The notes under the pieces were generated by a model. It was not told the DNA's origin. It did no database searches and worked only from the letters and a program-made list of their open reading frames with translations. From IMG/VR virus record IMGVR_UViG_3300033388_002544, positions 1 to 45,602 of that record: 45,602 nt of DNA; one strand, written 5' to 3'. The position numbers and the translations under genes are program-made. Shown here one piece after another: positions 15,646-45,602 of this stretch. Every line of letters begins with the position of its first letter. Position 1 is the first letter of the stretch. The DNA is from a virus.

Positions 15646-18054
15646 ATGTTCGTAAAAACTGAAGGTCCAACAGATGCAAAAATAATGTTAGTAGGAGAAG
15701 CTCCAGGAGCAGAGGAAAACAGAACAGGTAGACCATTCTGTCCATCAGAGCCTGCAGGACGTACCTTAAACACTCTCCTCTCCAAAGCTAACCTATCTCG
15801 CCAAGAAGTCTCCATTGCTAATGTAGCAAGGGAGCAGCCTCCTGGCAACAAAATGCAGTTCTTCTTTGACGACTACAAACACAGAGTACCGAAAGAGATA
15901 CTTCAGAATTGGATTCAGTACCTCAAGTCAGAGATAGAAGAACGCCAACCTAACATAGTAGTAGCTCTCGGAGCAACAGCTCTATGGGCACTTACTGGGA
16001 ACTATGGTAAGAACAACGGAATAGAGGTCCATCGTGGATACTTAACTGAATCAACTCTAGTTCCAGGAGTCAAAGTCCTACCCACTTGGCATCCGCAGAA
16101 GTGTAACTATGAATACAAACTCCGCTGGTCTGCTATAATGGACCTCCGGAAGGCAGTAGCTAATTCAAACTCCCCTGCCATGCCAGTTGATAATCGTGTA
16201 CTAAACTGTAACTTCTCCAGACGTGAATACCTTGACTGGCTTCAACACGTCTACCACAACCACCAAGGTCCACTCTCAGTAGATATTGAAACAGCTAATC
16301 CTGGTTGCCATATAGACATAATGGGAATTGCTGATTCTCCACTACATGGAGTAGCTTACACTATCCTCAATAGAAGAGAGCCAAAACACAGTCTTGAGAA
16401 AGAAGCAGAGGTCTGGTATTGGATAGCAAAACTGTTTGATAAATTTCCACTGATCCTCCAAAATGCTTCATTCGATATGTGTGTCCTCTGGCTGCACAAC
16501 CATATCCTCTGCCGAAATATTGTCTTCGACACAATGGTAGCAGGTCATGTTTGTTGGCCTGAGTGTCCTCGTTCTCTTGGCTTTCTTGGTTCCGTCTGCC
16601 TAAATGTACCAGAGTGGAAGTCCACATCTGACACATTTCCTGCTCTCTACAACGCTGCAGATGCAGCTAACACATTTGGCATTAGAAATGCTCTTGAAAA
16701 AGAGATAGACAAAACAGGACACAGAGAAGTATTTGAGGATGAAATGTCTCAGCTCTATCCATCTGCTATGCTTCAACTCCAAGGAATAGCTGTTGATGAA
16801 GAATACAGAGCAGGACTACTCAAAGCTACTTCTACCAGGCTAACAGAATTAGAGACTCAACTTGAAACTGACATTGGGAAGAAGATAAACCTTAACTCAC
16901 CTAAACAACTTCAAACTCTCCTCTATGTAGATATGGGTCTACCAACTCAATACAAAAGGAGAAAGAGTGCAAGTGATGAAAAAAAGAAAACAGCTAATGC
17001 AGAAGCATTAGTAAAACTATCCAGGACAACAAACAATCCCATCCTTGATAATATTCTCGAAGCAAAAAAGCTACTAAAATTAAAGAGTTCCTTCCTTGAC
17101 ATCCAACTATCACCAGAAGGAAAAGTTCATACTTCCTACAATATAACTGGTGCCACAATGAAGAAGGAGAAGAAGGGAATCATAATAGATGAAGAGGATA
17201 GCTTCAAATCCTTCGGTCGTTGGTCATCAAGTAAAAGTATAATCCTTACATATGGTTCTGGTAACTTACAGAATATACCAAAGCTTGCTCGTAAAATGTA
17301 CAGGGCACCAAGTGGCTATATGATAACACAAGGAGACTACAAACAAGCAGAGGCAGTAGTAGTTGCTTATGAAATCAGAGACATACTTCTTATAACTCTA
17401 TTCAAAGCAGCATTCGGCCTTTCTGGCCAAGAGTGTGAAGAAAGATTCTTAGATGTCCATAAACTAACAGCTTCCACTATGTTCAACATCCCAATCCAGG
17501 TAGTCACAAAAGATCAAAGAGGAGTTGGTAAAACCATCCGGCATGCGACTAACTACTCAGCAGGTCCAGGAGTAGTAGCCTCTCGTCTCAACTGCCCCAT
17601 GCCTGAAGCTAAACAACACATTAAAAGATTCCACCAAGGTTGTCCACAACTCCACTTATGGCATAAAAAACTTCAACAAGAACTACGACTAACAAGAACA
17701 CTTACTAACCTTCTCGGAAGAGTCCACTACTTCCTGTCCAGATGGGGAGATGAATTATTCCGTAGTGCCTATTCTTACATTCCACAGTCGACAGTTGGAG
17801 GACTACTAAACTCTGCACTAGTCCGCTTCTACCGTTCCTACTGCTCTGACGTAGCCCTTCTTCTTCAACTCCACGACGCAATTTACGTCATGCATAAAGT
17901 AGACGAAGCAAAAGATGTTAGAAAAGCCATGCGAGAAAAGATGCTCTTCCCTATTACCTCATCCTACGGAGAAGAATATACAATAGATGTTGACTTCTCT
18001 GTTGGAGATTCTTGGGGAGAAATGGATACAATTATGGATGAATCTTATAATTAA
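15646..18054 (+). CDS. Uracil-DNA glycosylase / family A DNA polymerase fusion, 802 residues
   Basis: Residues 1-175 match family 4/5 uracil-DNA glycosylases: GEAPGAEEN (17-25), GRPF, NVAREQPPGN and WHPQ (148-151). A 3'-5' exonuclease follows, with DIE (213-215), LQNASFDM (271-278) and YNAADA (335-340). The polymerase part has motif A GDYKQAEA (563-570), motif B QRGVGKTIRHATNY (624-637) and motif C QLHDAIYV (741-748). Motif C lacks the usual Glu after HD (HDA), and the Phe762 position of E. coli Pol I is His633, as in some phage polymerases. The glycosylase may strip uracil from the template as replication proceeds. It starts after TTAAAGGAGTAATCC and is the genome's replicative polymerase. 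Confidence 0.93.
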   Translation: MFVKTEGPTDAKIMLVGEAPGAEENRTGRPFCPSEPAGRTLNTLLSKANLSRQEVSIANVAREQPPGNKMQFFFDDYKHRVPKEILQNWIQYLKSEIEERQPNIVVALGATALWALTGNYGKNNGIEVHRGYLTESTLVPGVKVLPTWHPQKCNYEYKLRWSAIMDLRKAVANSNSPAMPVDNRVLNCNFSRREYLDWLQHVYHNHQGPLSVDIETANPGCHIDIMGIADSPLHGVAYTILNRREPKHSLEKEAEVWYWIAKLFDKFPLILQNASFDMCVLWLHNHILCRNIVFDTMVAGHVCWPECPRSLGFLGSVCLNVPEWKSTSDTFPALYNAADAANTFGIRNALEKEIDKTGHREVFEDEMSQLYPSAMLQLQGIAVDEEYRAGLLKATSTRLTELETQLETDIGKKINLNSPKQLQTLLYVDMGLPTQYKRRKSASDEKKKTANAEALVKLSRTTNNPILDNILEAKKLLKLKSSFLDIQLSPEGKVHTSYNITGATMKKEKKGIIIDEEDSFKSFGRWSSSKSIILTYGSGNLQNIPKLARKMYRAPSGYMITQGDYKQAEAVVVAYEIRDILLITLFKAAFGLSGQECEERFLDVHKLTASTMFNIPIQVVTKDQRGVGKTIRHATNYSAGPGVVASRLNCPMPEAKQHIKRFHQGCPQLHLWHKKLQQELRLTRTLTNLLGRVHYFLSRWGDELFRSAYSYIPQSTVGGLLNSALVRFYRSYCSDVALLLQLHDAIYVMHKVDEAKDVRKAMREKMLFPITSSYGEEYTIDVDFSVGDSWGEMDTIMDESYN

Positions 18055-22168: not shown

Positions 22169-22660
22169 CTAACCGTTGATTTGTGGAGCAGTTATTTCAT
22201 CAATACTTGTAACCGTCCCCTCAACTCTGAGGTTATTGTCACCTGCATCTGTGTCACTACCTACTGTTACTCCACCATTTACACACAATTCACCGAGAGG
22301 ACTCGTTGTTCCTATACCAACATTTCCGTCTGCATCTACACTCAAAGCAGGATTAGGAGCCCCATCACTTGCGGATAATTCAGAGTGCCTGTGTAAAGCG
22401 TCTGCCATGCTATCATCTGTCAGGGTTTCAAGTTCTGTGCCCGTGGCAGTAGTATCCGAATGAGATGCTATATCATGGCTCTCTGCGTGACCACCAGTAT
22501 CGTCTATATATTTCTTCACCGATTGCTGAGTAGGCACCTTAGTATCAAGGTTGGAGGCCATATCATCCTCGTCTATCACCCAACTTTTTGCAGAAACATC
22601 AGTAGCAGTGTCTAACGTCAGTTCCTCCACATACGCTACGGTTTTCCATGTTTCAGCCAT
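22169..22660 (-). CDS. Tail-fibre-like protein, 163 residues up to TAG
   Basis: Begins MAETWKTVAYVE, shared with the gene at 23389 through a 38-base exact repeat at the 5' ends. Ser/Thr/Asp-rich (HAESHDIASHSDTTATGTEL) with fibre-like KKYIDD. It ends in TAG at 22171-22169, but the same frame stays open for 349 further codons, so the native product may be 512-513 residues. The start follows AAAGAG and overlaps the previous stop. The late-arm position suggests a tail fibre. Confidence 0.75.
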   Translation of the reverse strand: MAETWKTVAYVEELTLDTATDVSAKSWVIDEDDMASNLDTKVPTQQSVKKYIDDTGGHAESHDIASHSDTTATGTELETLTDDSMADALHRHSELSASDGAPNPALSVDADGNVGIGTTSPLGELCVNGGVTVGSDTDAGDNNLRVEGTVTSIDEITAPQING

Positions 22661-22931: not shown

Positions 22932-23389
22932 TATGACGCCACCGTACAGACCTTAATTGCAAGCTCGTCTGTTTGAAAACATACCATACCAACAGATTGT
23001 GTTAGTGTAGCTTTTGCAGCATCGTCCGCCACCACATGAACAACGACATCCTGAATTTCTTGGCCATTAAAGCTAAACGCCGCAGCTGCATCGCCACTTA
23101 GTGCGGCGAGTAATTCCGCATCTGTTAAGCCTTCTAAGCCCGCTGCGTTAAAGATGGCATGTTCAGTGTCATTAGCGGTTCCATCAATCTGGACCATATT
23201 ATTATCCGAAATTCCAATAGTAATACCGTCCACATCTCCACCAGTCAGTCTACCAACCACCTCTTGTTCCGCAACGACCAAAGCAGCAGGGGAATTATCC
23301 GCTACTGATATTAAAACGGACTGGGCATCAAAAAGGGTATTTGATACAACATCCTCCACATACGCTACGGTTTTCCATGTTTCAGCCAT
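22931..23389 (-). CDS. Fibre-like protein with MAETW N-terminus, 152 residues
   Basis: Start at 23389, after AAAAGGAGCTTAAA; an in-frame extension upstream lacks a ribosome site. First 12 residues identical to the gene at 22660. The rest is beta-rich and acidic (VVGRLTGGDVDGITIGISDN; SGDAAAAFSFNGQEIQD). It appears to be a second small fibre or appendage protein carrying the same N-terminal anchor. Confidence 0.75.
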   Translation of the reverse strand: MAETWKTVAYVEDVVSNTLFDAQSVLISVADNSPAALVVAEQEVVGRLTGGDVDGITIGISDNNMVQIDGTANDTEHAIFNAAGLEGLTDAELLAALSGDAAAAFSFNGQEIQDVVVHVVADDAAKATLTQSVGMVCFQTDELAIKVCTVAS

Positions 23390-32603: not shown

Positions 32604-32960
32604 TTAAGAATTCTCCTTTAACATCTTCCATTCTTTCTTTGGTAAATTAACTGAATAAATACTATTACCGCAAAATTGACAAAACCATTGAGATTTATAA
32701 TCTCCACCTACTTGATTCCTTGGTGTTGTGTTAACTGAATATAAATTCATTGGTTTACCACATTGTAAACAAGGCATTACTTTGCTACTTACTGAGTCTT
32801 TACGTTTTTGCAAATCCAATCCATACATATAATTTAAAAAGGCTTCACCTCCAACACCCATAGAGTAACCATTCTGTTCAAAGTTAATTATGAGGTTACG
32901 AAGTTCTTGGAGTACTTTTCCAGTTTTGGCTTCTGTAAGTTGTTCTATTGTTTTAGGCAT
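32604..32960 (-). CDS. Zinc-ribbon late protein, 118 residues
   Basis: Start at 32960 overlapping the TAA that ends the extended frame of the upstream gene (TAATG). CLQCGKP (about residue 65) and CQFCGN (about residue 95) give a four-Cys zinc ribbon. N-terminal helix EQLTEAKTGKVLQELRN. Function unknown; a structural or assembly role is inferred from its place among virion genes. Confidence 0.75.
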   Translation of the reverse strand: MPKTIEQLTEAKTGKVLQELRNLIINFEQNGYSMGVGGEAFLNYMYGLDLQKRKDSVSSKVMPCLQCGKPMNLYSVNTTPRNQVGGDYKSQWFCQFCGNSIYSVNLPKKEWKMLKENS

Positions 32961-33397
32961 TAAGAACACTCCCATTCGGCATATCTAACCAAATCAACAC
33001 AAAAGCACCAATCTACGTTTCCATCCATACTACAATACGGCTGGCATGGTGTTACATTATAGGTAAGGCAATTATTGCAGTCATTAACTGCTCCATAACA
33101 AATAGTCCCATTTAAACAAACTGCTTCATCGTCTCCACCACAAATGTGATCACCCCTCGAACAATTAAGCTCATCTTTTTGTTTGTACTTCCCTTTAATA
33201 GCGGAATAAAAGCAGGAGTTATTGCATTCTGCAGGGTAACATGCGCCATACCATGAGGTAGCGGCGATTCCTGGCAGTTTACACCCTACTTGGTAATCAC
33301 TCCAATGGCCATTAGATTCATTCCTAATCTCAGCAGTTACTACTGTCCCACAACTATCCGTTATTGTAATTGAGGCGACCGCCCCATAATCTCCACC
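32960..33397 (-). CDS. Cys-rich C-terminal part after in-frame TGA, 145 residues
   Basis: Continues the 34276 frame after TGA (33400-33398). 20 residues after the stop the sequence GAVASITITDSCGTVVTAEI aligns with VLVKVTDTCDTMREIEITNSS of the preceding repeat, without insertion, so the stop falls inside a repeated domain. It then contains about 17 Cys (CKLPG, CYPAECNNSC, CLNGTICYGAV, CNNCL, CQPYC). It ends in TAA overlapping the next ATG, as other late genes do. No start with a ribosome site was found. Likely the missing C-terminus of the upstream gene. Confidence 0.6.
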   Translation of the reverse strand, partial: GGDYGAVASITITDSCGTVVTAEIRNESNGHWSDYQVGCKLPGIAATSWYGACYPAECNNSCFYSAIKGKYKQKDELNCSRGDHICGGDDEAVCLNGTICYGAVNDCNNCLTYNVTPCQPYCSMDGNVDWCFCVDLVRYAEWECS

Positions 33398-34276
33398 TCA
33401 TGTACCTGCTGCACAATCAAGCTGCGCACTTCTAGAACTGGTAGTAAAAGTATTAGTACCACTTCCAGCCCAAGTGTATCCAGTACCACTGACTTCGTAA
33501 GTAAAATCAGCACAACCTTTCAAAACTGATACAGATATACTACTATCAGCTACAATAGTATCTGCTGTATTATCATCATCAAATTCAAGATCATTAGCAG
33601 AATCATCACAATCACAGCAACTTGAATTTGTAATTTCAATCTCACGCATTGTATCACAAGTATCAGTAACTTTCACTAATACTGTAGGACAATCATAATC
33701 TGTTATAGGCTCTCCAATGACACAACCTAACATGTTACTTGATCCAAGTGAAGTAGCACCCCATGGGAATGTGTAACCTTTATTATCTGTTTCCCACTTA
33801 AGTGGTGGGCAACCCATATACGTAAATAGTCCAATCACATTTCCAGAAGTTATTGTATCAAGTGTTGCTTCATCATCAAATGTAAGTTCATCAACTTCCG
33901 GATCATCACAACAACCATTCAAACTTGGTGATTCTACTACATGAATATGTTGTGTAGCAGCTGGGTAAATAATTTCAAGTAGTGCATCAGTCAATGGTGG
34001 TGAACAAGTATGAAAATGTTCACAAGAAGTTGGAACTAATACAGCAAATTTTTTCTTTTCTTCAAATACTTCATCATCTCCTGTAATAACATGAATCCTG
34101 TCTACTCCATAAATTGTCTCAACAAAAACAGTATTCTTTCCATCAAAATGTTTTCGTACTCCAGTAGGTAAAGTACCAAGCTCAGTTTTTAAAGCTGTAA
34201 GTTTATTCTTAGCCCAAATTTGAGATGGGTATGCAGTATATTGATTACCGTATGATGATAAAATTAAAGGGTTCAT
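33398..34276 (-). CDS. Beta-repeat virion protein, 292 residues up to TGA
   Basis: Starts at an ATG overlapping the previous stop (TAATG). The N-terminal part includes VFVETIYGVDRIHVITGDDE. The C-terminal part has repeated beta domains with Cys pairs (SPSLNGCCDDPEVDELTFDD; SSCCDCDDSANDLEFDDDN; SISVSVLKGC). The second domain is cut by TGA at 33400-33398, although the frame continues with the matching half of the repeat. Probably a tail or appendage protein with Ig-like or adhesin-like repeats. Confidence 0.78.
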   Translation of the reverse strand: MNPLILSSYGNQYTAYPSQIWAKNKLTALKTELGTLPTGVRKHFDGKNTVFVETIYGVDRIHVITGDDEVFEEKKKFAVLVPTSCEHFHTCSPPLTDALLEIIYPAATQHIHVVESPSLNGCCDDPEVDELTFDDEATLDTITSGNVIGLFTYMGCPPLKWETDNKGYTFPWGATSLGSSNMLGCVIGEPITDYDCPTVLVKVTDTCDTMREIEITNSSCCDCDDSANDLEFDDDNTADTIVADSSISVSVLKGCADFTYEVSGTGYTWAGSGTNTFTTSSRSAQLDCAAGT

Positions 34277-34701
34277 TAAGTGGGCTCATGTATAATTATA
34301 TTCCAAGCGTCAATAACTAAAGGATCACCTGCTACAAGGCCTGTTCCACTAACTGTAGTTTTATAAAGTAAATCACTTAAACTACAAAGTGCTATAATAG
34401 ATGGAGAACCATCAATATCAACACTTCCAATAGCAACACGAGCTATTTGAACACCTCTTCCAGTATTGTCATATTCTACTTCTTCTTCTGGTTCTTCATC
34501 TGGAGGACCACCAGCACTACCATTAAAGATGGAAGAAAAAGAATAATTATTACTCCTCCAAGATGAGAGAATTTGACATCCTTCTAAACTTATGTCACCA
34601 TATTCTTCTGGGTCTCCAGTAAGTAGATAAAATACTTCAGTTGCACCAGTTAAAGCTCCAAGACAAGCATCTAGCATTCCTGCGTATGACCACTTTCCCA
34701 T
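34276..34701 (-). CDS. Late structural protein, 141 residues
   Basis: The ATG overlaps the previous stop. Contains an acidic, Pro/Glu-rich linker (GGPPDEEPEEEVEYDN) between two beta-like parts (ATEVFYLLTGDPEEYGDISL; GVQIARVAIGSVDIDGSP). No family recognised. A tail or head-tail role is inferred from position. Confidence 0.72.
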   Translation of the reverse strand: MGKWSYAGMLDACLGALTGATEVFYLLTGDPEEYGDISLEGCQILSSWRSNNYSFSSIFNGSAGGPPDEEPEEEVEYDNTGRGVQIARVAIGSVDIDGSPSIIALCSLSDLLYKTTVSGTGLVAGDPLVIDAWNIIIHEPT

Positions 34702-35180
34702 TATGGTAACATTGACCTCCGAGTATTAAGGATAACTGGAAGTACTTCAATCATATCAATGGCAAAGTTACAGCCATCAACATTCTCTACTCTGACATTC
34801 CAGTATCTTCCAATTCCGTCCCTTCCAACATTCACAGTATTTCCATTCTGCCTGTCATAGAGTCTATATGGAAGGGTATAAGATCTCTCATTATCCTCTT
34901 CATTCTTAACCTTAACTGTTAAACTTCCATCAGTTTCGTACCCAATAAATAATTTCCGAATCCTCTTCACATTAGAGATTCCCCAATCACTAAGTATCAA
35001 AGCAAAGATAGCATCAATGTCAGTTCCATTATCATCGTCTCCACCAAGGGTGAAGATTCCATCCGAGTTAGCTCCGAAGTAAGTATCATTAATTTTACAG
35101 AAACTATTAAAATCATAGTTCCCATACTGAGATATTGCTTGGTTTTCAAGTCTAACAACAAGAGCTATACATTTTGCCAT
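34701..35180 (-). CDS. Late structural protein, 159 residues
   Basis: Start overlaps the end of the repeat protein upstream. Beta-rich (YFGANSDGIFTLGGDDDNGT; SLTVKVKNEEDNERSYTLPY), with GIGRYWNVRVENVDGCNFAI near the C-terminus, a pattern seen in phage tail proteins. No exact family can be named. Confidence 0.72.
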   Translation of the reverse strand: MAKCIALVVRLENQAISQYGNYDFNSFCKINDTYFGANSDGIFTLGGDDDNGTDIDAIFALILSDWGISNVKRIRKLFIGYETDGSLTVKVKNEEDNERSYTLPYRLYDRQNGNTVNVGRDGIGRYWNVRVENVDGCNFAIDMIEVLPVILNTRRSMLP

Positions 35181-38092: not shown

Positions 38093-38647
38093 CTACGCTG
38101 CGGCCACGGTAGGCACTACTGTAATTAGCATGTGGAAATACGCCTCTCCTGCAGTGAGTGTTCCACCGGCAGGATATGCTACAACAGTTGGGACATCAGC
38201 ATCTGCAGGAGTGATGATATACCCTGCACCTCCAACACCCAGGATTCTATCAGCTACCCAGTCACTGCTATTAGTTGGAAAATGCATAGCAGCGGTTGCA
38301 ATAATATCAGCGTCACCGTCAGTGTTTACCCAATACTCATCTACATCTACGTCAGTAGAGGCACCACCTGTGGTAATATCATCAGTTGCAATAGTACCCT
38401 TTCCAATGGTGAATGTGGTACTGTCATCAGTAAATTTTGTAACTACCTCAAAGCAGAGTTCCTGCACAATGATAGTAGTTGTTCCATAGCTTGGAGAGAC
38501 GATACCTGTGATGGGGAAAGAAAAAAGTACCACATCCAAAGCATCATGCTCATATGTAATAGCACCTGAGCTAATCCAGTATGGAGTTTCAAGCACATTA
38601 GAACGTAAATCCGCCCTTCGTGCGTCTTGCATAGTTCCAGTTGTCAT
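38093..38647 (-). CDS. Late protein, tandem paralogue A, 184 residues
   Basis: ATG after GAGGAGTTTAATT. Clearly related to the gene at 39234: DLRSNVLETPYWISSG, LFSFPITGIVSPSYGTT, HFPTNSSDWV and AYFHMLITVVPTVAAA recur there with substitutions. Beta-rich; probably a head decoration or outer tail protein made from a duplicated gene. Confidence 0.8.
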   Translation of the reverse strand: MTTGTMQDARRADLRSNVLETPYWISSGAITYEHDALDVVLFSFPITGIVSPSYGTTTIIVQELCFEVVTKFTDDSTTFTIGKGTIATDDITTGGASTDVDVDEYWVNTDGDADIIATAAMHFPTNSSDWVADRILGVGGAGYIITPADADVPTVVAYPAGGTLTAGEAYFHMLITVVPTVAAA

Positions 38648-38673: not shown

Positions 38674-39234
38674 TTATGCTGCAGCTACACTCGGAACCAC
38701 AGATATCAGCATGTGGAAATACGCAGAGCCAGCAGTGATTGTACTGTTAGAAGTGATAACTGCTGTTACAGCCTGTACAGCAGCATCAGCAGGTATAATA
38801 ACATAACCGCTGGCACCACTGGTGCCAACACCAGCTACTCTTGAAGTAACCCATGTGCTTCCATTAGTGGGAAAGTGCCTTCCAACAGCAGCAATATCTG
38901 CTGCACCATCAGTTGCTTCCCAGTAAGCATTTTCATTAACATCAGTAGTTGTACCAGCAGTAGTTACAGCATCAGTAAGGAGAGAACTTAGCCCAATCAT
39001 ACAAGCTAAAGTGCCACCAATAAATGCTGTTACTACCTCCAGGCATACCTCCTGAACAATTATTCTGGTTGTTCCGTAACCAGGAGCAATAGAAGTTGTG
39101 ACAGGAAATGAAAATAATACAGCATCCTGATCATCACATGCTTTAGTCATTTCTCCTGATGTAATCCAATACGGTGTTTCCAGAACATTTGAACGTAAAT
39201 CTGCTTTACGCAGATCAAGACTTGTTCCAGCCAT
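38674..39234 (-). CDS. Late protein, tandem paralogue B, 186 residues
   Basis: ATG after CATAGGAGTTAATT. Shares DLRSNVLETPYWITSG, LFSFPVTTSIAPGYGTT, HFPTNGSTWV and AYFHMLISVVPSVAAA with the gene at 38647. The pair is adjacent and in the same direction, the mark of tandem duplication. Function unknown but likely virion-associated, just after the capsid gene. Confidence 0.8.
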   Translation of the reverse strand: MAGTSLDLRKADLRSNVLETPYWITSGEMTKACDDQDAVLFSFPVTTSIAPGYGTTRIIVQEVCLEVVTAFIGGTLACMIGLSSLLTDAVTTAGTTTDVNENAYWEATDGAADIAAVGRHFPTNGSTWVTSRVAGVGTSGASGYVIIPADAAVQAVTAVITSNSTITAGSAYFHMLISVVPSVAAA

Positions 39235-45434: not shown

Positions 45435-45602
45435 CTACAGATCTGGAAGCTTCTCCTCCACTTCTGTTGGAGTTACATCAATAGCTTCACTCCTTGCGTC
45501 TACTCTTTCATCCAGATCTTCCTTCTCCATCTGCACAAGATACCCAATGAGTCCTTGGATCTCACTGGGCTTTCCATCCATCACCAATTCTCTATCTTTC
45601 AA
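45435..45602 (-). CDS. terS: Terminase small subunit (3' part; continues from left end of window)
   Basis: C-terminal part of the gene described at 1-438. Reading from 45602 down, the sequence repeats the segment already present at 114-1 and then ends with EAIDVTPTEVEEKLPDL and TAG at 45437-45435. The frame matches across the circular junction. Confidence 0.8.
   Translation of the reverse strand: MKDRELVMDGKPSEIQGLIGYLVQMEKEDLDERVDARSEAIDVTPTEVEEKLPDL
45489..45602. repeat. Terminal direct repeat, right copy
   Basis: Exact copy of bases 1-114. See the left copy. The unique genome length is therefore 45,488 bases. Confidence 0.97.

Follow-up and report, generated by a model that had tools for sequence, protein, structure and literature searches.

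An in-frame UGA predicted to encode selenocysteine in an Ig-like, cysteine-rich virion protein of an uncultured phage

In bacterial selenoproteins that depend on a bacterial SECIS element (bSECIS), such as E. coli FdhF, an in-frame UGA replaces the cysteine (Cys) of homologues, as it appears to do in the phage virion gene described here. The published bSECIS model describes a hairpin within the coding sequence, directly downstream of the UGA, with a loop of 3-9 nt, a stem of 4-16 bp, a G in the first two loop positions, a spacing of 16-37 nt and a minimum free energy of at most -7.5 kcal/mol (PMC13188914). A 2026 inventory of 119 prokaryotic selenoprotein families and subfamilies (PMC13188914, Table 1) includes selenocysteine (Sec) and Cys forms within families, as predicted for the family reported here, and contains no phage or virion protein and no TUGxDY motif. 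Known prokaryotic selenoproteins are mostly cellular redox enzymes. The protein studied here differs from those of the FdhF type in that it is neither a redox enzyme nor a thioredoxin fold, but what appears to be an Ig-like, Cys-rich phage structural domain. NCBIfam, which holds many selenoprotein families, gave no meaningful match, and no phage selenoprotein was found in a full-text search of open-licence papers, outside which an earlier report is possible.

In the eukaryotic poxviruses, viral selenoproteins are acquired glutathione peroxidases (PMC8310308). These DNA viruses rely on the Sec machinery of the host, as proposed here, but they do so with captured host enzymes and eukaryotic SECIS elements, whereas the present case concerns a phage structural gene with a putative SECIS of the bacterial type. 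Readthrough of the Qbeta type (mentioned in PMC8310308) likewise involves a stop within a virion gene and yields a C-terminal extension; there, however, the inserted residue is incidental, whereas the site described here is invariably Cys or predicted Sec. Hoc-like proteins (phrog_2973) and the decoration protein 5lxk are comparable to the present protein in its apparent Ig-like beta fold and in having a late structural gene, but lack its Cys-rich C-terminus and predicted Sec, and the profile matches (phrog_2973, matched by 2 of 14 members with E 0.005 at best; 5lxk, E 0.24) are too weak for membership.

The DNA analysed here (the window) is a whole virus record of 45,602 bp, which is probably a complete genome because it carries an exact 114-bp direct terminal repeat (positions 1-114 and 45489-45602). 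Its genes include those for a phrog_156 portal and a PF13252 capsid protein. On its minus strand, a frame that starts with the ATG at 34276 runs for 292 codons to a TGA (33400-33398) and then stays open for another 145 codons to a TAA (32962-32960), which shares one base with the next ATG (TAATG). The interrupted frame comprises 438 codons including the UGA, with the predicted Sec at residue 293. As the gene adjoins a virion structural gene, it can be placed in the late structural cluster. The features of the locus are:

34701-35180, minus strand: virion structural gene (phrog_26502), neighbour of the UGA gene
33401-34276, minus strand: part before the UGA, 292 codons by translation, with the N-terminal segment, Ig-like repeat 1 and the first part of repeat 2
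33620-33916, minus strand: Ig-like, Cys-rich repeat 1, residues about 121-219, with the ordinary Cys retained (..DYDCPTVLVKVTDTC)
33287-33616, minus strand: Ig-like repeat 2, residues about 221-330, containing the UGA (from AlphaFold and alignment)
33398-33400, minus strand: UGA codon, predicted selenocysteine; Cys in 15 homologues and UGA in 7 others
33371-33386, minus strand: SECIS-like hairpin UGGGGC-GGUC-GCCUCA, 6 bp with a 4-nt loop
32960-33397, minus strand: downstream part, 145 codons plus the TAA, with 16 Cys and a conserved C-terminal W-x-C
32604-32960, minus strand: next gene after the UGA gene, encoding a small zinc-ribbon-like protein with a weak match to Pfam Zn_ribbon_11

Translation confirmed what the first-pass annotation had read from this locus, namely the open frame beyond the TGA, the TAATG overlap and an alignment without gaps between repeat 2 around the UGA and the preceding repeat 1 (VTDTCDTMREIEI / ITDSCGTVVTAEI). 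The peptide across the predicted Sec reads GT-U-GGDYGAVASITITDSCGTVVTAEIR. In 20,000 mononucleotide shuffles of this downstream sequence, the 145 codons stayed open only once. Near the N-terminus, the protein shares a DG..V motif with its syntenic counterpart in phage L010, in a weak alignment (26%). The AlphaFold model consists entirely of beta strands over residues 231-320 (repeat 2), where pLDDT is mostly 89-96, against a mean pLDDT of 52 for the whole model, and Foldseek returned matches to Ig-like proteins, at low TM because of the low confidence of most of the model. Based on this modelling, the UGA-containing repeat is described as resembling an Ig-like domain.

With the window protein alone as query, neither named phages nor IMG/VR yielded a relative. 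Terminase relatives (52-69% identity) led to syntenic phages, identified via the terminase and a 334-aa gene (L005/L010, L011, L012 and L014); since their C-terminal modules at the UGA-gene locus are unrelated, these phages could not test the UGA site. In L010 (1837-3129) and L011 (2242-3633) the syntenic gene has a completely different C-terminal part, and because of such differences the virion gene looks modular, with exchangeable ends. Domain relatives in phages were reached with a profile of the Ig-like repeat. Two rows of the profile alignment A3 were invented sequences that served as search aids and were excluded from the data, and in alignment A4 and one of the domain queries a Cys was put in place of the UGA purely for the search; queries with the L024 and L030 domains gave no match in named phages. 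Phage L033 was found by a DNA pattern that required the loop motif. Chromosomal copies were reached by a profile search of bacterial genomes, with a class search of 85 genomes, in which every internal stop reported was a single TGA; a first scan of genome contigs gave no match, and phylum-wide and second-class searches added no further UGA members to those from the first class. The named genome match, L051 (G015), is a Deltaproteobacteria metagenome-assembled genome.

Among the resulting 23 members, which come from IMG/VR phages and bacterial genomes, the UGA column contains Cys in 15 and UGA in 8 (the window included), with no Trp, Gly, Arg, TAA or TAG; an in-frame UGA aligned to the Cys of homologues is a criterion for bacterial selenoproteins. 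In the alignment of the 14 phage domains, all members have Cys (10, encoded by TGC or TGT) or UGA (4, TGA) at this column, followed by an invariant Gly. The comparison with related phages that the first-pass annotation had called for thus revealed TGA at the same column in three other phages. The contexts of the four UGA codons, each marked by an asterisk, are CAAGT*GGDYGAVAS in the window, SDAGT*GSDYDAVAS in L018, CASGT*GTDYDAVAS in L024 and EGGG*GVDYDAVAV in L033. The remaining four UGA genes are chromosomal (L062 and L064, both in G015; L059 in G086; L061 in G071) and belong to Deltaproteobacteria-like genomes; bacterial genomes also supply Cys forms. As homologues in three phages and three bacterial genomes share the TGA column, the TGA is not a sequencing error or a chance occurrence. 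In a tree calculated with the UGA site masked, a branch with 98/95 support separates 11 members (8 UGA and 3 Cys) from 12 members that all have Cys. Because all eight UGA members fall into one clade together with three Cys members, the UGA is, judging from these sequences, old and maintained. Known Sec/Cys families exhibit the same pattern, with Cys variants inside the UGA clade.

The stem of the window hairpin starts 11 nt after the UGA and its loop 18 nt past it (17 nt between), and with a G in the first two positions of the 4-nt loop and -7.8 kcal/mol the hairpin falls within the limits of the bSECIS model. Counting the window, 7 of the 8 UGA members fit the model, L059 being the exception (-6.5 kcal/mol against the limit of -7.5), and none of the 3 Cys members of the UGA clade does. 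Taken alone, the window hairpin proves little, since such short hairpins fit the model at 65 of 400 random codon positions in window genes (16%). The loop following the UGA reads NGU[U/C] in all UGA members, as GGUC, AGUU or UGUU. The hairpin is GAUGC-AGUU-GCAUC in L018 and L024, GAUGC-GGUC-GCAUC in L059 and L061, and GGC-AGUU-GCC, extended past a bulge, in L062. In L064, GGC-AGUU-GCC is less clear, the best-scoring fold having a different loop, and in L033 the best pairing lies around a second AGUU loop shifted 6 nt downstream. The window loop GGUC is that of E. coli fdhF; the E. coli SECIS has a bulged U, which is absent from the window hairpin.

In a gapless alignment of the eight UGA members, 83% of the cells are paired, compared with at most 60% when the rows are slid. 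One pair exhibits a compensatory change (U-A in five members, G-C in three), and covariation amounts to 0.268 versus 0.133 in shuffles, 6 of 500 of which were as high. RNAalifold retains the three inner pairs only, the window segment that contains the UGA is hardly more stable when folded than its shuffles, with an alternative fold that pairs the UGA at -9.0 kcal/mol, and Rfam gave no match at the UGA site. Overall, pairing and covariation provide moderate evidence. A Val codon dictates the GU of the loop as well. All UGA members carry this codon, and the three Cys members of their clade (AFAK, ISCA and AYCT) lack it; without L033, which was selected by pattern, the Val codon is found in 7 of 7 versus 0 of 3 members (chance 1/120).

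In agreement with the first-pass annotation, which had considered TGA a normal stop elsewhere in this genome, TGA ends 11 of the 48 predicted window genes of at least 90 aa. In the other three phage contigs, TGA ends 12 of 32, 16 of 44 and 11 of 60 predicted genes, and in all four contigs long open stretches lie behind few, if any, of the other TGA stops. TGA being an ordinary stop there, the four phages use the standard code. The genomes G015, G071 and G086 each encode a SelB scoring over the cut-off and a 73-bit tRNA-Sec; SelB is common in this bacterial class (66 of 85 genomes), and its presence in all three genomes with UGA copies is therefore weak evidence by itself. Among the phages, no tRNAs were found in the window, L018 and L024 contigs, and the eight tRNAs of the L033 contig do not include tRNA-Sec. 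Without a tRNA-Sec in any of the four, the Sec machinery must be host-encoded, and the window phage would infect a Sec-decoding, Desulfobacterota-like bacterium.

Several other explanations for the interrupted frame were weighed. Truncation by a fresh nonsense mutation, which the first-pass annotation had offered as one possibility, or by a sequencing error would be simple to obtain, as TGA is one base change away from TGT and TGC, the Cys codons used by the relatives. The same TGA, however, is conserved in seven other phage and bacterial genes separated by long branches, with downstream coding conserved in all of them, and truncation was rejected as extremely improbable. An arrangement of two genes, with the C-terminal part translated from its own start, would fit the short frames, which are individually open. 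Yet no in-frame ATG, GTG or TTG occurs after the TGA before an ATG at codon 124, which bears out the earlier observation that a new start with a ribosome site is lacking, and a restart can therefore not explain the downstream part; moreover, the domain is continuous within one protein in the Cys relatives. This arrangement was likewise rejected and has next to no chance of being correct. An altered code in phage or host, with UGA read as Trp or Gly, has nothing in its favour beyond the UGA site itself; it is contradicted by the TGA stops common in all four phage contigs and by the aligned residue, which is Cys and not Trp or Gly, and was dismissed as having a negligible probability.

Decoding by a near-cognate tRNA (for example that for Trp), which would set a fixed ratio of short to long virion protein irrespective of the inserted residue, is somewhat less remote but still very unlikely. 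It would accommodate the open and conserved downstream frame, and a mixture of short and long products is possible with any inefficient recoding. Against it, the 15 relatives without the UGA all have Cys at this column and never Trp, Arg or Gly, which argues that the identity of the residue matters, and the SECIS-like hairpin of the UGA members is missing in Cys members of the same clade. Of the programmed UGA readthrough suggested by the first-pass annotation, the programmed decoding is thus supported, whereas generic readthrough is disfavoured by the Cys column and the hairpin.

Given the invariant Cys column in which the UGA stands and the SECIS-like hairpin behind it, we favour Sec insertion over generic readthrough. 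On the available sequence evidence, the UGA at 33400-33398 is very probably decoded as Sec within a virion protein, through SECIS-directed insertion by host-encoded machinery, with some termination. The gene (34276-32960) would give rise to a single protein of 438 residues, and the mRNA hairpin at 33386-33371 would function as the bacterial SECIS, whose GU-containing loop would be bound by host SelB with Sec-tRNA(Sec), bringing Sec to a ribosome that has paused on this codon. The Sec would take the place of the conserved Cys in the Ig-like, Cys-rich, putative surface domain, where it would probably serve in a selenylsulfide cross-link or a redox-sensitive contact on the particle exterior. Termination may also yield a shorter product, in that ribosomes missing the insertion would release a 292-residue form without the Cys-rich C-terminus. 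We infer the incorporation of selenium, the location on the particle and the role of selenium from these comparisons.

The carriers of the domain are diverse. L024 and L033 are tailed phages with phrog_156 portals, neither of which was found with the window portal in a direct search, and L018, likewise a tailed phage, differs in its major head protein and has a phrog_332 head-tail adaptor. In bacteria the copies are surrounded by ordinary chromosomal genes, and by eye a hydrophobic N-terminal segment like a signal peptide is visible in L064, L059 and the Cys copy L054, which suggests that the domain is probably extracellular in bacteria too. At L072, L073 and L074, the UGA copies stand alone on the chromosome; some begin like signal peptides, and their neighbours by eye include toxin-antitoxin-like, RHS-like or transporter-like genes; these are candidates for secreted bacterial selenoproteins.

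We consider it likely that this is a family of Sec-containing virion surface proteins that unrelated podovirus-like phages share with proteins secreted by Sec-decoding Deltaproteobacteria-like bacteria, and that Sec has a non-enzymatic role in it as a structural or redox-switchable cross-link. This would be the first phage protein family described as containing selenium. If so, bacterial viruses would depend on the 21st amino acid of their hosts, their infectivity would be tied to selenium supply and host SelB, and the use of selenocysteine would extend to a surface Ig-like domain. Furthermore, the likely hosts of these uncultured phages would be restricted to Sec-decoding bacteria. Additional phage selenoproteins may be hidden, because gene callers split such genes in two.

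A homologue of the zinc-ribbon-like protein also adjoins the UGA gene in L024 (4658-5041; 35% identity over 105 aa, E 2e-15), and the motif VGGDYKSQWFC is common to the window and L024 proteins; the match in L018 is weaker. Based on this shared neighbour, the two genes may travel as a cassette, and the zinc-ribbon-like protein is a possible partner of the predicted Cys-rich selenoprotein. Elsewhere in the window, tandem paralogous structural genes of about 185 aa each (38093-38647 and 38674-39234) follow the capsid region, and an exact 38-bp repeat (22623-22660 and 23352-23389), which looks like a duplicated module head, gives two tail-region genes the same peptide start (MAETWKTVAYVE). The window also encodes, on the plus strand (15646-18054), an 802-aa family A DNA polymerase that carries a uracil-DNA glycosylase domain at its N-terminus (PF03167, PF01612 and PF00476).
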